Assembly (NCBI GenBank): GCA_009192285.1
Contig: CM018603.1
Location: 62,001 to 126,000, forward strand
From: Morchella semilibera
Lineage: Eukaryota; Ascomycota; Pezizomycetes; Pezizales; Morchellaceae
Length of the DNA stretch: 64,000 bases
Direction: 5' to 3'
The notes under the pieces were generated by a model that ran no database searches, was not told where the DNA came from, and saw nothing but the letters and a program-made list of their open reading frames with translations. A program made the translations under genes and the position numbers. Numbering within the stretch: position 1 is the first letter of the stretch; each line of letters opens with the position of its first letter. This document shows, in pieces, positions 7,870-27,109 of the stretch.

Positions 7870-10800
7870 TCATGCGCCAGTATGAATGAATGGAGACCAT
7901 AGGAGAGGTGATTTCAGGTTCTCGTCTCTCAACTTCTTGACTGCGAAATGGAACGCAGAGGCGACTTTCCTATGCCCACACCTGGAAGGGCCCCCGTCGA
8001 ACAGGTTTCGATAAAACTCGGTAGAGACCTTTAGGCAAGCATTGTCATCTGATGGCCACATATTTGCAAGTACATGACTGAATCCGGCGAGCTGGAAGGC
8101 GCTGGCAATGTGGACTGACTCATCTGCAGAACATTCCGACCCAATTCCGGCGGTTGAACAGGCTGACAAGTATGCGATCTGCGCTGATTTCAGGCTGATG
8201 TCCGATATCGCCCCTACTGTCAATTTATCAACACCGGAGGTGCCAGCGTGAAGCAACAAATGGCTGTTGAAAGGGTCTTGGGGATCAGAAAATCCGTGGC
8301 ATGCAAAGTGAATTGCACTGAACGAAGGAAGTTTTTCTAGTATGTCCTTGACACTTGGACTAGGAAGTATCTCTGCCCTAACCCCCTCTGGCACCAAACT
8401 CGCTACTGACCCAACCTCAATATCAACACTTTCCAAAGGTGATTGACCAGGAGTCTCAGGCATAGCAACCATGAGCAAACTCGAGTCACCGTGACTGTCT
8501 CTGTCTAAGAAGGTGAGAGGTTTCTCACGCGCGTAGGAAAGAGCTTTGATTGTTGGGATGTAGGAGCTCATTGCGTAGGATAGGGTGTTGTTGGTCGACC
8601 CAGGTGAGTGGTCCCCAGCTGCATGAAATGGTGCCAAACCCATGAAACCTGCTCCGACCCACCATATCCGCGCAGGTACTGACTGGTCAGCCTGAGGGTT
8701 TGAAGACACAAGACCTAGTATCTTCAGTTCATCAATAACAGGCTTTACTGCGACCCGCCACAGCCAAAGTAGGAATTCTCCCATCTTTTCGGTCCTTGAT
8801 CGGTATGTACGGCATTTTCCAAGAAATACCTTGTTGAGCGGCACAATTCGATTCCGCGCATCAGAGTAAATAAGATCCGGAAGTGGTATAGACTTTACAC
8901 CCGAGCTTGTAACAATTATCGCGTCGCTCCGAATATCCGTACATACTTCTATAATGATCGGACCATCTTTGGCCATTTCAACGAGTTGTTCATCTGAAGG
9001 TGGCAGTTGGAACCGTTCAAACCCGGGTTGATTTCTTATCTCTTGCAACGTCTTCACAAGCTCCTGGGAGTCGTTCACTCTCTGTCTTTTGCGCTCCTCT
9101 TGTGAAAAACCCAGCTCAGGGACTTCGGGATCCGAAGGCCGAAAGAATCCCCCGCAAGGGCCATCCGGCTCGTCAGCGCGACTGCGTAGGTTATTAAACT
9201 TGTGAAAGAGCTCTGGATTAATTTTCCGCAGATCTTGGAGGTTCTCTGTACTCCTGCAGTCGATTGTGAATCCTAGGGTAACTCCTCGACACTGCTCAAG
9301 GGCAGCTAAGCAACGAGATGCTGGTTTCCCCGTGTAGAGGCCTGCAGAAACCGCTAGCTGTCCTAACCTACAAGCGTCCACATCTTTGTCATAGACGTTG
9401 TATCGCTGCTTGCGCAGAGAATACACAGGTGTGGCTGTAGGAAGGATTGCGATTGCTTCCTCAAATATCATGAAGGCTTCCGACATTTTCTGGTCTCTAT
9501 GCCCCAGTGAATGGGTAAGCTGGGTCCCAGCAAGCCACCCACCCGCCACCCGGTGAATTGGACTTAATAGCTCGCACCTCAAAGCCGCTTTACTGAGCTC
9601 GCAAATCTCCTTCGCCTTCAACGGATCGAGGGGTTGACCCAACAACTCATAATAATCAGCCCATGCATTGGCGATTTGTATGCATAGTCCAAAATCATCA
9701 GGTCCCTCGTCTAGGGTCAATACAAATAGCTCTTCTAATGTATGAATCCGATCCAGTAAAGTATCGGCATCCAGCTTCTGTGAACCAATGGCCACTTTCT
9801 GAGATATGCAGCGGGGGAAAAGCAACGTATTGTACACACCCAAAAGCCTAGATTTCGAGGGCGATTGGTAGGAAGCCGTTCTACTAGCATATCGAAAGAA
9901 GCAAAGTGTCGAGTCTACCTCAGAACTATTGTTTCCAGGTTCCTCCAGATAGAGCATAGTGGCCAAGCATAGTAGAGCCTGCCCGAACCTGGTATTACGC
10001 CACCGATGATCCGACGCAGTAATGGCGCCTTTCAACTCTCTATATAAACAAGTTGCTCGCTTAACGTCGGCCGCATTCTCGAGCATCGTATATCGGGTAA
10101 CAAGAATGAGCGATAGCATTAACAAATACTTTGGCCGATCCCGGTGGTTTAATGGTGCTATATTCGCTAACTCCTCCAATTGCAGTATAGACTGATCAAG
10201 ATCTCTGACATCGGATAGGGCGTAAAATCGATCCCTAAAGGCCATAGCTAGTTCACCTAGGTTTCTTAATCTGATCCGCATGGAGACATTTCCTGCGTTG
10301 GCCGCCGCATGTAGCATATCTATAGCATGGTTTATGTCTGGAACGGCTTTGGAACGTTTGAACCGTATCATAAGGGCGGACCCCAAGTAGTAGGTGCATT
10401 CGCCCCTGAGAAATCCATTTCCTAACTGAATCCCCAAAGCTTGTTGAAAGGAACCAACAATCCGGTCGATGTCTCCCTTGTTGCTCTGCTTATGCAGCCA
10501 TAAATCGCATAATCCTCCCGCAAACAACACCGCCGACAAACGCCGCATCGGTGCTGATGATTCCAATTCGTTGAATATCCCTCCCATCTCGATGATTTCT
10601 TGGAACTCACTGTAAACCATTCCTACGCTGCTAAGCCAGAGAAGAAGGATAAGATTTTGGCCATTGTGGTCCAACGGTCGGGAGATCAACGCACCGGTTA
10701 GAGCGCGAATTGAATGTTGAATATCCATTGGGTCATCACTCCATGTGAACCTCTGTTTCCAGTATGCGCCAAGTCGTACTAGATTGGATCTTGACGGTGG

Positions 10801-11292
10801 AATTTGTTGATTCCCCTGAACAATCTCTATTGCCTTTTCGAGATCCTTCAGTGTTCCATTGGCGATGGACCTCTGGTAAAGTACATCGGCCGTCCATGTT
10901 GCTCGCTTGGTCCACCGATATTTGGTCTTTCCTGTACGCAGGATTGGGTCTTCGAAATCGTCGAAGTTATGTTTAGGTTCCACTGTTACTGTTGGGGGGT
11001 AGTCCTTCACGTGGTGTTGCAGCCCCAGTCGTGTGAGATTGAAGCGTAGTTCATCGCGTCTTTTAAAAGATAAATAAAGGGTATCGATCAGATTGTTGCT
11101 CTCCTCCTGATACACGAAGATTATCGGATATTCACACTGCATGTTCCTAAGGAATCGTATTAGCCCCATCTTAACTATATATATACTCAGGGAGGGTATG
11201 TTCAAACCTTGTCGAAATTTGCCCTTTTTAGGTGTGTTGAGTTGAATTATCTGATGATTTTTATAACCAGCTGCCACCGCTGCCGCCGCCAT
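7870..11292 (-). CDS. CHAT-domain (caspase-like) protease with TPR-like N-terminus
   Basis: Single-exon protein of 1140 aa. The C-terminal third is a CHAT peptidase domain (caspase/separase fold, clan CD): the His motif HFACHG lies near residues 995-1000 and the Cys motif LSACST near 1042-1047, giving a His~999/Cys~1045 dyad, preceded by ARIWWVGAGFMGLAPFHAAG, which matches the conserved pre-catalytic strand of CHAT proteins. Residues ~150-650 are helical and repeat-like (e.g. blocks GTLKDLEKAIEI, DIDRIVGSFQQALGI, DVRDLDQSILQLEEL), typical of the TPR-like array that controls such proteases. The first ATG gives a low-complexity MAAAAVAAG start; an alternative start is the Met near residue 42 (MGLIRFLRN). 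It is transcribed away from the 283-aa gene at 12645-13496 across 1.35 kb. In fungi CHAT proteins occur in NLR-like and gasdermin-linked cell-death loci, which is the role I infer. Its substrate is not shown by sequence alone. Confidence 0.88.
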   Translation of the reverse strand: MAAAAVAAGYKNHQIIQLNTPKKGKFRQGLNIPSLSIYIVKMGLIRFLRNMQCEYPIIFVYQEESNNLIDTLYLSFKRRDELRFNLTRLGLQHHVKDYPPTVTVEPKHNFDDFEDPILRTGKTKYRWTKRATWTADVLYQRSIANGTLKDLEKAIEIVQGNQQIPPSRSNLVRLGAYWKQRFTWSDDPMDIQHSIRALTGALISRPLDHNGQNLILLLWLSSVGMVYSEFQEIIEMGGIFNELESSAPMRRLSAVLFAGGLCDLWLHKQSNKGDIDRIVGSFQQALGIQLGNGFLRGECTYYLGSALMIRFKRSKAVPDINHAIDMLHAAANAGNVSMRIRLRNLGELAMAFRDRFYALSDVRDLDQSILQLEELANIAPLNHRDRPKYLLMLSLILVTRYTMLENAADVKRATCLYRELKGAITASDHRWRNTRFGQALLCLATMLYLEEPGNNSSEVDSTLCFFRYASRTASYQSPSKSRLLGVYNTLLFPRCISQKVAIGSQKLDADTLLDRIHTLEELFVLTLDEGPDDFGLCIQIANAWADYYELLGQPLDPLKAKEICELSKAALRCELLSPIHRVAGGWLAGTQLTHSLGHRDQKMSEAFMIFEEAIAILPTATPVYSLRKQRYNVYDKDVDACRLGQLAVSAGLYTGKPASRCLAALEQCRGVTLGFTIDCRSTENLQDLRKINPELFHKFNNLRSRADEPDGPCGGFFRPSDPEVPELGFSQEERKRQRVNDSQELVKTLQEIRNQPGFERFQLPPSDEQLVEMAKDGPIIIEVCTDIRSDAIIVTSSGVKSIPLPDLIYSDARNRIVPLNKVFLGKCRTYRSRTEKMGEFLLWLWRVAVKPVIDELKILGLVSSNPQADQSVPARIWWVGAGFMGLAPFHAAGDHSPGSTNNTLSYAMSSYIPTIKALSYAREKPLTFLDRDSHGDSSLLMVAMPETPGQSPLESVDIEVGSVASLVPEGVRAEILPSPSVKDILEKLPSFSAIHFACHGFSDPQDPFNSHLLLHAGTSGVDKLTVGAISDISLKSAQIAYLSACSTAGIGSECSADESVHIASAFQLAGFSHVLANMWPSDDNACLKVSTEFYRNLFDGGPSRCGHRKVASAFHFAVKKLRDENLKSPLLWSPFIHTGA

Positions 11293-12644
11293 GAGCTCGG
11301 GAGAGCACCAAGCATCTTATAGCATGTTATAGTAATCGGTGCTATGCGTTTGTGCTTGGTGACTTAAACGAGACACCCGACTACGCGGTCCTACGCTGCC
11401 CCGCCCCTCACGCCGGAGCTGGAGACCCTCCCTCATCCACTCGGACTCAGCCTCCGCGTCATCCCTCAGCCCCCCCCCCCCCCCGCGACCTGGTCCGTGC
11501 TTTTACTAGAATCAGTAACCTCCCGATAAGCAGCGAGTAGTAATAAGCGCGGTGCAACCTTGATGTCTCGAAACGCATTTTTTCAACTTGACATCCCCAG
11601 ACCTGCAATACAACCCCATGAGTACTCCATAGCCATGCCTTTTGACAAGTCTGGAAAGTGGATAGAGACTACTCTAAATGAAAACATAAAAGTTATTGAA
11701 GCCCAAGCTAGGGAAGAGTAGGAAAGGCCAGATTGGGGGGAAATGTATATAAAATCATTGACAGCATGATGCCAAAGAGCATTGCAGCAGTAAAGGACTA
11801 GCTATAGGGAGATCATAAAAAGTGGCGAATATAGTTTAGAGGCCATAGTATCTATTCTGTATTTTGTTATTTAGTTATATTACTTCTTTTCATTTTTATT
11901 TCCAGTTTTGCATTGGGGCCCGGACGGGTTGCACCCGCTGTTCACTTTTTTCCTGCGGGTGTTTTACATACATACAGCTAACGCCGACTCGAGGCACAGG
12001 GTCGAAGGGGCCAGCTGAGGCGCCTCGTGGACCATAGCCTTCTCAGTGGCGTGTTATTCAGAAATCCGGGCAACAGTTCGGGGGCTCAGATATCTATGGG
12101 CTGCGATCGTGACTGTATGTATTTAGGCACCCTACGCAAGGCTGACGCCCAACACTCCCTTTAGCACCCTACGTGATGGCGCTTGGCTTTGCAATTGACA
12201 TGTCGCTCCCTCGTTGGCTAATTATCTTTCAGCCCGCACCAGCAAGACACCCGCCTCAATGGAACAGTAACTCACTCAGGGGATAAGGCGGATCCTGCCC
12301 GTGATCATGAGTGGGTGTATGTAGAGTACGTGACTAAAACCCGCAGACTGACGCCTGAGGCTGTTGGGTCCTAACACCAAATGCAAATCCCAAAGACTAT
12401 CCCTTAGGTTGTCAGTAAATGCTGCCCCCCAGAAAAAAGCAAAAGTTGATAATAGATCTTATTATCTCTCTTATCAAATATTTGATCTCCCATACGAATT
12501 CTCACTCTCTATTATAGGGGGGGCAGCATTTGACAGCTTAAGGGCTATATAGTACGTATCCAATACTTAAACCTAGTCTGACCCAACACTTAGATCATTA
12601 CTCCCCTCTTTCATCACAACCATCTTAACACCTTGCCCGCTCAA
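11293..12644. promoter_or_regulatory. Divergent intergenic region between CHAT protease and gasdermin-like gene
   Basis: This 1.35-kb interval must hold both promoters. It contains a run of 15 C (11470-11484), AT-rich blocks around 11840-11900, and a 144-bp foldback element (12401-12544) whose right end lies only 100 bp upstream of the plus-strand ATG. The last 100 bases before that ATG are pyrimidine-rich, as common for fungal leaders. No individual operator was identified. Confidence 0.5.
12401..12544. mobile_element. Foldback MITE in the promoter of the gasdermin-like gene
   Basis: Arms of about 28-30 bp (12401-12430 and 12517-12544) are inverted copies: CCCTTAGGTTGTCAGTAAAT continuing into GCTGCCCCCC on the left, and its complement with few differences on the right. 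The central part carries a further palindrome, ATAATAGATCTTATTAT. CTAT directly repeated outside both ends (12397-12400, 12545-12548) looks like a target-site duplication. No coding capacity. Confidence 0.6.
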
Positions 12645-13496
12645 ATGTCAGCACCCGCGCCCCCTCTCTCAAACATTGCGACCCCCAGTTCCCTTCCTAT
12701 TGGGGTTCTTATCACTAACCCCCACGATCCATTTCAAGATCTCCACGACTCATTCCCCGAACGGACCGCCCCATCAGCTAAAATAACCATCACACCATTC
12801 GGAATCTACCAAACCAACTCCACAAACTCAAAGATCTCGAATCTACGCTCCAGCCTAGTCGATATTCTAGGTCTCTCCCGCCAACGCACCAAGACAAGTA
12901 GCAGTCGCCTTTCCGCCCCGGAGGGCGAGCATCACCAGCTCAAAAACCACACACAATGGTTTGAGGCTCAGTGTAGAGATGAACGTACACGACACTGGAT
13001 TGTCGATACCTGGAGCAAGGGAAACGACATTTATCTGATCGTGGGGCTTCTTGTCCTGACTGATGCCAGGTTGGTCATTGAGAGTGCTATGAGCAAGGAA
13101 AGAGGTCAGCAAGCACGCATACCTATACCTCCCGGGCTCACCATTTGCAATTGGGTGAGCTCCATTGGTGGCGTATTATCAACAAAAGAGACTAGAGACT
13201 CAATGGACGGCCATTTTGAGACGCCAGGGAAGTTTGTATTTGGCGTATGGCACCGAAAAATTAAGGTTGGGTGGTTGCGAAGCAGGGATTTGGACAATAG
13301 TCGGCTTGCAAGTACAACGTGGAAACCGTTATGGAGGTGGAGGGGTGAGGAGAAAGAAGCTGGAATAGGTGAAGAGGGGGAAGTGGAGGAAGATGATGAT
13401 GAGGAAGACTTGATAGACTTGGAGCTTGAGCAGGAGAGTGAGTGGGGTAGTGAAGATGAAGAGGACACTGAGTCTGAGCACGTAGGCGATCCGTAG
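12645..13496 (+). CDS. Candidate gasdermin-like pore-forming protein (283 aa)
   Basis: Intact single-exon ORF; I use the ATG at 12645, which follows a CT-rich leader. Length (283 aa) is near that of Neurospora RCD-1 and Podospora HET-Q1. The middle reads as amphipathic beta strands: HWIVDTWSKGNDIYLIVGL then VLTDARLVIES (about residues 115-145), a polar linker with PIPPG, and later KFVFGVWHRKIKVGWL (about 192-207). This order resembles the gasdermin N-domain strand pair (mammalian pattern Y-V-V-T-E-V-L-T-K...P-S-G...L-A-F-R-V). The last ~50 residues are a highly acidic, Asp/Glu-rich tail, in the place where fungal gasdermins have a short inhibitory C-terminus removed by a protease. It is divergently paired with a CHAT protease, a known companion of fungal gasdermin genes. 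No named domain was proven, and the homology is inferred from pattern and context. The alternative is an unrelated fungal protein of unknown function. Confidence 0.5.
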   Translation: MSAPAPPLSNIATPSSLPIGVLITNPHDPFQDLHDSFPERTAPSAKITITPFGIYQTNSTNSKISNLRSSLVDILGLSRQRTKTSSSRLSAPEGEHHQLKNHTQWFEAQCRDERTRHWIVDTWSKGNDIYLIVGLLVLTDARLVIESAMSKERGQQARIPIPPGLTICNWVSSIGGVLSTKETRDSMDGHFETPGKFVFGVWHRKIKVGWLRSRDLDNSRLASTTWKPLWRWRGEEKEAGIGEEGEVEEDDDEEDLIDLELEQESEWGSEDEEDTESEHVGDP

Positions 13497-16400
13497 CTAC
13501 TGACCTTGGTTAGCCAAACTCTCTCGCACCATCTCTGAAACGCAAATCTAGCCAAGATGATGTTGGTGAAGTAATTAAACGGCGGAGAATGCATAGATAT
13601 GATCTTCCTATGTATTTAATCTCTTGTAAACCCAAACTCTGGTGCCTAGTTAGATAGTATTTTACTTATCCAATTCCTCAATATGTGCGTAAGCTGTTAG
13701 GTAACAGATAGTGAATGGCGAAACCCCACCTCCGAGATTATCATCGCGCCCTATTCAGGCGCAAAAATGGGTGAGGCCCAAATACATGGCACACACCCGA
13801 GGTATATGTGGCTTTGGGAAAGCTAGCGGGATTCGAACTTACGACCAAACGTTTATTCACCGCACCCCCTTAGTAGAACACCTTAAATTACCCTTCCGAT
13901 ACCTGAAATCCTCACAGCCTGCGCCCCCACGCACCCACCAGACCAGAAGACGTAGGATTTATCGGGGGAACTGTGAATTGGTTTTCATTGATTAACTGAT
14001 TCATTAGAATTCGTCTTAGCTTAGCCGAACTTATGTAAAGTAGTTTATCACTTTCTAGCTATATGTAGTGATGGCGAGATGAGACTTGGACAGGTTTTGT
14101 CTCGTCTTGTATTTTTTCGAAAGTGTCGAGACAAGGGGCCTACAAGTAGTCTTTCAGTCTTGGCAAAGTCTCGGGACTTTGCAACCAAAACCCTAACCCT
14201 GGTTTGGAATCAGTAATATCAAACTGTATGGTGGAAAAAAGTCGAGATAAGTCTCGAGATATCTATGGCCAGTATTGTCTTTCGTCTTGTTCTGCCCAAA
14301 GTCTCAAGATAAAGTCTCGAGATAACTTGTCTCGTACCCATCACTGGCTGTATGACATAGAATGACATGCTATTGCGATTTGAAGACTATGGTGACTTTT
14401 AACCCCATTTCCCAGTGATTTGCTTCGAGCCTTGGGTATCGTCATCAACCGGGGGAGCATCATGCGCTATCACTTGGTTCCAGTGGGATGGCTAGTGAGC
14501 AAGCTTAGGAGACTAATGCCAGGGACTATTGTCCTATACATATACACCAGGAACCTGTAATGCAATATGTCAGCTGCGCAAGGTTGTTTTTTCATTCGCT
14601 GTGTCCAGCCCTAAGACTATGACAATATCTATCATTCTGTCTCCGCAACACCGCTCTAGCTGCCGCCACCATAATTAACATAATTGGTAAGATAAGAGCA
14701 GTCAAAACAAAAAAGCACATGCACGTGGTGTGTCCATTCCCTTTTCTTCTGTAGCGCCGGGGGGCTTCTTTCGGGTACCTACAGCTGCAGTAGACTTCTA
14801 GAGGTCCCAGTCCTAGAACAAAGGGAAGACACGCTCGGTGGAGCTCGCCGAGAGTATAGAGTGGAGGATTCTTTAGGAATAATTAAGTAGGTAAATTGAT
14901 AAGTTTAAGCACTTTTGCCGTAGGTAAAATATTCGGTAATTGATGGTCGATGGGAGGCTGTGATAGCAGGGACTCTCAAGGATCTTATACAACTTGGTAT
15001 GATTGGAGAGTAGAGATAGCGGCTAGAGATTAGTTCGTTGATACGGGTATAATAACTATTTCCTATCGGCAGAGGATAAGACCCTGCTTACAGATCTCAG
15101 AATAACTTCCCTCGGAGGTTGAAATCGCCCAATACCAGGAGCCTACTCTGGAGCCTAGGAGCTAGCAAGAATGGCCAATCAAATTGGATATGCTGTCGAG
15201 AATGTCAGGCGGTTATTCTTTCGACCACGGATGAAGTTAGTTCAGTTATCACTAGCCTTGTTAAGTTTTAATATTTGGCTCTATAGATCTATTGTTATCA
15301 ACCGTTAGGGTAAGTTAATTAACCCAAATTAACTAATTCAAAGACTACATATTTTAGGGCGGTAGAGTAGTGATATTAGAACACGGTTTAATATTTACTT
15401 TAGGGGTTGCGGCTGTTAAAAGCTCTTTCTTTGTTTCGATCGGGCCTCTTGAAAGCTGCTATTTATATGATCGCGTGCAAAGGGCGTTATCTCCGAGAAA
15501 GCCAACGGGTAATGAATTTGTGTACCCAGGAAACCTGTCTCCTGGAGCCACGCGCAAAGACCGTTAAATAGTTTTACCGGTTTATATGCAGCCCGTACAT
15601 TGTTAGCGGATAGGTTGAGGAACGGATTGACTCTGCTACTTAGACTGTATGAATCGAAAGCAGTGGCGACAGGCCAAAGATTAGCTTATGAAAAACTGAA
15701 AGATAAAGTTGCGAGAGCTAGTGCATGGCCGTTACTCTGTATATAGAGATCAGGAGCATCCTTAATACCTATATAATGATAAGTGGAATAATTTTGTATA
15801 AGAAGATCCGGAGTCTGACGCAAGGAAGGCATGGGCCTGCCGCGATGTTGTTGCGGATTATATTAAGACTATTAAATCATAGTTGCGGGTTACGGTGATA
15901 TGTTAACAGTTCCTCCAATCATCAACTATCACTCGACTCTGTCTTCTCGTGTTGTTAACCATCAACCCTAGGAAAGATAGTGAGCTTAGTAAGTATATAT
16001 TCACCCGAGGGAGATATTCGGTAGAAAGCAAATGGATTCAGCAGACAGTTGATACGTGTAAATTGTTACATAATGACCAAGCTGATGCCAAAATCATACA
16101 TGATCTCGAGTGATATTTGTTGGGGGCAGCTGTGAGGGATGTTAGGACTTGTATGAAAATTAGCCCGGAACGGCATCATTTTTTAATTGGTGATATCTGA
16201 GATCTAATGTACATCGTGAGATAGTTGGCTTTGGTAAAAGGGTGGAATCTTTGGGTTCCCTCTGGGCCGCGATGCTAAACCGGTTGCGAGCACCAGCCCG
16301 GAAGCCACTAGGGCTCCCCGGAAACTACCTTCAACGAGTTGTACCAGGCTAATAACTCGCGGGTCCAATGCCACGCGACTGAATCAAGTTCTACTGTCCT

Positions 16401-25754: not shown

Positions 25755-27109
<1,355 letters not shown>

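Follow-up and report, generated by a model that had tools for sequence, protein, structure and literature searches.

The closest described counterpart of the locus considered here comes from Podospora anserina, for which PMC12881547 (citing Clave et al. 2022) describes a gasdermin clustered with a TPR-bearing CHAT protease that activates it. The same source reports that HET-Q1 loses ~5 kDa to HET-Q2, likely through a cut at F238, gives lengths of 257 and 244 aa for RCD-1-1 and RCD-1-2 of Neurospora crassa, and describes the proteases as often fused to WD40, TPR or ANK repeats (PMC12881547). Bacterial gasdermin genes, too, are described from clusters with protease genes, some of them for CHAT proteases (PMC10197012). 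A fungal gasdermin with a CHAT protease and without an NLR is, as a kind of system, already known.

The window, by which we mean the whole 64,000-nucleotide stretch of DNA analysed, corresponds to positions 62001-126000 of contig C1, and the genome searched comprises 56.8 Mb in 23 contigs. The locus consists of an ORF for a 1140-aa CHAT-domain protein (7870-11292, minus strand) and an ORF of 283 aa from its ATG (12645-13496, plus strand). Both are uninterrupted and lie on opposite strands, as a sequence-only reading of this DNA had maintained, and the 1.35-kb region that separates the two divergent genes by their ORF coordinates (11293-12644) may serve as their promoter region. Our data make it highly likely that the two genes form a fungal pyroptosis-like module, in which a gasdermin stands beside a divergently transcribed CHAT sensor-protease that would activate it; the rival readings weighed below are not mutually exclusive.

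Relation of the 283-aa protein to fungal gasdermins

Neither the 283-aa protein nor any of its 12 aligned paralogues had a Pfam gasdermin match or any other relevant hit, and a phmmer search of the PDB with the protein alone was empty up to E 10. We built a profile from 13 of the 14 distinct family loci, merging the C21/C22 duplicates and omitting C16b, which lies in two pieces. The N-terminal part is missing from two of these members (L015 and L022), and two degenerate loci found later are not included. Against the PDB (177,635 sequences), the best match of this profile was Neurospora RCD-1-1 (8JYZ chain A, E 0.0072), followed by an RCD-1-1 fusion (8JYX, E 0.069) and the unrelated WYL1 (E 0.61), which together make up the three matches obtained up to E 10. 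Below E 0.1, the profile matched two RCD-1-1 chains only.

A profile–profile comparison with RCD-1, which the sequence-only reading had proposed as a check on its gasdermin assignment, pointed the same way. In hhalign, the family profile aligned with the RCD-1-1 and RCD-1-2 fragments over ~103 columns at 17% identity, with a probability of 70.8% and a score of 35.2 (the probability was only 39.4% with the RCD-1-1 fragment alone). None of 300 column shuffles reached this score, the shuffled maximum being 20.5, and the reversed RCD-1 fragments scored 12.1. In the window protein, the segment aligned with the two fungal gasdermins comprises residues 97-206 (12933-13262, plus strand). Judged from these comparisons, the 283-aa protein very probably belongs to the fungal gasdermin family, and the earlier assignment is supported.

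The least probable of the readings considered is that the protein is no gasdermin at all and serves CHAT proteases as some other basic substrate or as a regulator. The missing Pfam match and the low identity with RCD-1 across the 103 aligned columns would suit such a protein, as would a single-sequence structure prediction with a pLDDT of 33.5, which we regard as uninformative and did not use. Against it, RCD-1-1 is the sole PDB protein below E 0.1, the real alignment score exceeds that of every shuffle, and the gene is paired in the genome in a manner like that of published fungal gasdermins as described in PMC10197012.

Further searches for relatives were made at the level of the genome and beyond. 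A genome search that used the RCD-1-1 fragment by itself failed to recover the family, an empty answer that is uninformative for that search, and a scan of viral contigs found no relative. One weak tblastn match to a Bosea plasmid (E 0.9) was set aside as chance because it is antisense to annotated genes there. A tRNA or SINE beside the gasdermin-like gene was also considered and rejected: the window contains no tRNA according to ARAGORN, and a DNA search with 13690-13990 returned no further copy.

The short acidic tail noted from the letters of the sequence was borne out by computation. With the core–tail border placed by us where the alignment ends in a conserved stretch rich in Trp, Arg and Gly, the core (residues 1-234) is basic, with a net charge of +8 and a pI of 9.8. 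The tail (residues 235-283; 13347-13493, plus strand) has 49 residues, 27 of them D or E (55%), a net charge of -26 and a mass of 5.55 kDa; we presume it to be inhibitory and removable by cleavage. Across the 13 family members, tail charge is negative throughout (-4 to -32) and core charge is positive in 11 (the remaining two have 0 and -1), with tails ranging in length from 16 to 234 residues. Two paralogues, L014 (C17) and L022 (C16), have an acidic stretch followed by a hydrophobic C-terminal segment, a possible membrane anchor.

The CHAT protease gene

The partner gene encodes a CHAT (caspase-like) domain at residues 841-1139 (7876-8772, minus strand; Pfam PF12770, E 1.1e-33), and a motif search within that domain found both the His and the Cys motif of the dyad, HFACHG at residues 995-1000 and LSACST at residues 1042-1047, just as first reported. 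Searched alone against the PDB with phmmer, the protein had no match up to E 0.01.

The N-terminal remainder (8773-11292, minus strand) is presumed to be a TPR sensor region, in line with the earlier claim of a TPR-like sensor part. The window protein itself has only a weak, sub-threshold Pfam match to TPR-S (E 0.16), and from residue 69 onward it aligns at 32% identity with the CHAT paralogue C21b, which matches TPR profiles strongly in its N-terminal part (TPR_10, E 1e-14). Because of this alignment with a TPR-bearing paralogue, "TPR-like" is a fair label for the region.

The Pfam matches listed for the window CHAT protein (E up to 10) include neither NACHT nor NB-ARC, in a search that a very divergent domain could escape; with no nucleotide-binding domain among them, we rejected the protein's identity as a CHAT-bearing NLR. 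The compact, NLR-free form that the sequence-only reading had envisaged is consistent with this result, and such a form has been described before.

Homology to the copy on contig C16 (C16a) starts at M42 or M51, the preceding 41 to 50 residues being unmatched there, so that one of these methionines, rather than M1, may be the true start of the protein. The C16a CHAT ORF (L068:166-3717), a single open frame, seemingly has part of its CHAT domain duplicated internally.

Recurrence, divergence and decay of the pair

We assembled locus sets from searches with three family members, with PF12770 and with the window CHAT domain, counting fragments and weak matches and merging the near-identical C21/C22 copies, which gave at least 16 gasdermin-like loci and at least 18 CHAT loci. 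A CHAT domain lies within 10 kb (between midpoints) of 12 of the 16 gasdermin-like loci, leaving four without, and a gasdermin-like locus lies near 12 of the 18 CHAT loci. Chance pairing reached at most 6 in 100,000 draws, compared with the 12 observed, under each of two nulls, one rotating the gasdermin loci along their contigs and the other scattering them randomly over the terminal 1.1 Mb. Eleven of the 12 pairs have divergent genes; the exception, which lies near the start of C5, is convergent. The pairing of a CHAT gene with a gasdermin gene, proposed from this single locus, is thus supported by its recurrence across the genome.

We rejected an S8 (HET-Q2-like) partner because all 16 gasdermin-like loci are more than 10 kb away from each of the 12 S8 matches that were listed genome-wide; the search scored the best candidates and read exons singly, so that S8 genes which are divergent or split could have escaped it. 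The window itself contains a subtilisin-type S8 gene (25755-26690), ~12 kb off, whose coding sequence falls into two or more open pieces; it is probably an intron-bearing, ordinary secreted enzyme, and we take it to resemble the proteinase-K type. It is modestly surprising that CHAT pairing extends genome-wide with no listed S8 neighbour and with acidic tails throughout.

Wider flanks were inspected for two of the four gasdermin-like loci that have no CHAT neighbour. At one of them, on C1 at 4.106 Mb, an ORF with matches to HeLo and DUF7580 (L077:2729-4366, ~4.111 Mb; HeLo PF14479, E 4e-5) lies ~3.4 kb downstream; HeLo is described as a domain of necroptosis-like fungal death proteins (PMC12881547).

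Ten of the 16 gasdermin-like loci are less than 250 kb from a contig end, which suggests a subtelomeric bias as far as contig ends can stand for telomeres. On C21 and C22, CHAT and gasdermin loci occur at near-equal coordinates with equal scores between ~0.21 and 1.14 Mb, a pattern to be expected if the assembly contained this part as two copies or haplotypes; the gasdermin at 1.68 Mb on C22 has no C21 match.

If the partners had diverged together, their distances should be correlated, and over the 12 pairs CHAT and gasdermin distances indeed were (r 0.53, p 2e-4 and 1e-4 in two runs). The correlation was r 0.45 (p 0.004) over 10 pairs, with C16b and C21c omitted for their broken gasdermins, and r 0.38 (p 0.001) over 11 pairs, with C16a omitted; with all three left out, the remaining nine pairs gave r 0.15 (p 0.28). 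C6 has C21c as its nearest relative by CHAT but C5a by gasdermin. Co-divergence is not robust and rests largely on one recent duplicate, C16a. Recent duplicates thus moved as units, and the deeper signal is weak.

This weakness bears on the reading in which the window protein is a gasdermin whose activity is not controlled by cleavage by the window CHAT protein, depending instead on RCD-1-like partner mixing or on another protease. We regard this as unlikely. Weak deeper co-divergence of the partners speaks for it, together with the four gasdermin-like loci that have no CHAT domain within 10 kb and the description of RCD-1 as working without cleavage (PMC12881547), but 12 of 16 loci are paired, 11 of those 12 divergently, the acidic tail is long, and activation of a gasdermin by a TPR-bearing CHAT protease has been reported (PMC12881547). 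Control of the gasdermin by its CHAT neighbour is the reading we retain.

Several of the pairs appear damaged. Both dyad motifs were found in 8 of the 12 paired CHAT stretches. The C16a stretch ended before the Cys motif, which is present in the fuller C16a sequence, and those of C6 and C16b contain the first motif only, the Cys motif not being seen. C21c has HFACRG in place of HFACHG, and its gasdermin partner carries an in-frame stop; both partners of C16b are in pieces, with introns possible; and the N-terminal part of the C14 gasdermin lies in another frame. Decay may therefore strike both partners of a pair.

The nearest paralogous pair of the window genes, C16a, is 57.5% identical in the core of the small protein and 51% in the CHAT protein, with dN 0.32 and dS 1.46 for the former and dN 0.39 and dS 0.98 for the CHAT gene (NG86), and third codon positions are the most diverged. 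Both window genes are under purifying selection; dN well below dS, together with the divergence at third positions, marks them as conserved genes and not chance ORFs. The broken look of the sister pairs C21c and C16b, together with the C6 CHAT stretch without a Cys motif, might suggest that the window genes, too, are decaying or silent and have no present function, but two open frames, a complete set of dyad motifs and the low dN make this very unlikely.

Proposed mechanism and comparison with known systems

In the two-gene module that we favour, the short acidic tail would keep the basic, pore-forming core (residues 1 to ~234) inactive. The TPR-like region would sense a trigger, perhaps in non-self recognition or defence, whereupon the caspase-like CHAT domain would cut the gasdermin near the core–tail junction at residue ~234. 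The released basic core could then bind acidic membrane lipids, oligomerise and form pores, killing the cell. Removal of the acidic tail by the CHAT protein, as the sequence-only reading had pictured it, is plausible by analogy with gasdermin-activating proteases described elsewhere.

These data add a gasdermin–CHAT set to a known fungal cell-death system. The 12 diverged pairs in one genome, eight with both CHAT dyad motifs found and at least two (C21c and C16b) seemingly decayed, make it possible to test specificity, tail inhibition and trigger side by side. We also raise, tentatively and with more doubt than belief, a broader scenario, in which CHAT replaced S8 in gasdermin control and subtelomere-biased duplication produced a dozen private pairs, each with an electrostatic acidic tail removed by its own CHAT protease. 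If true, this would amount to an all-CHAT pyroptosis-like repertoire with orthogonal protease–substrate pairs.

Among known systems, bacterial gasdermins have protease–gasdermin clustering in common with the window pair, and no bacterial gasdermin chain is among the three PDB matches of the 13-paralogue profile up to E 10. The window protein shares with RCD-1-1 and RCD-1-2 family-level sequence homology and a similar size (283 aa here), whereas RCD-1 acts by the meeting of two alleles, without cleavage. HET-Q1 is similar in its short C-terminal piece, ~5 kDa compared with 5.55 kDa here, and in position, with the likely cut at F238 compared with a core–tail junction near residue 234. Its partner HET-Q2, however, belongs to the subtilisin-like S8 serine proteases, and the het-Q1 and het-Q2 genes are idiomorphs, whereas here a CHAT gene adjoins the gasdermin gene.

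The Podospora anserina cluster is the nearest in arrangement, with a gasdermin gene beside a gene for a CHAT protease that has a TPR or TPR-like region, a likeness drawn from description rather than from comparison of the sequences. The present genome differs from that report in its many CHAT pairs, and in acidic tails that were measured here only. Proteases near gasdermins are reported to be, on average, ~63% S8 and ~19% CHAT (PMC10197012); with 12 of 16 gasdermin-like loci near CHAT and none of the 16 near the 12 listed S8 matches, this genome is a skewed case worth explaining.
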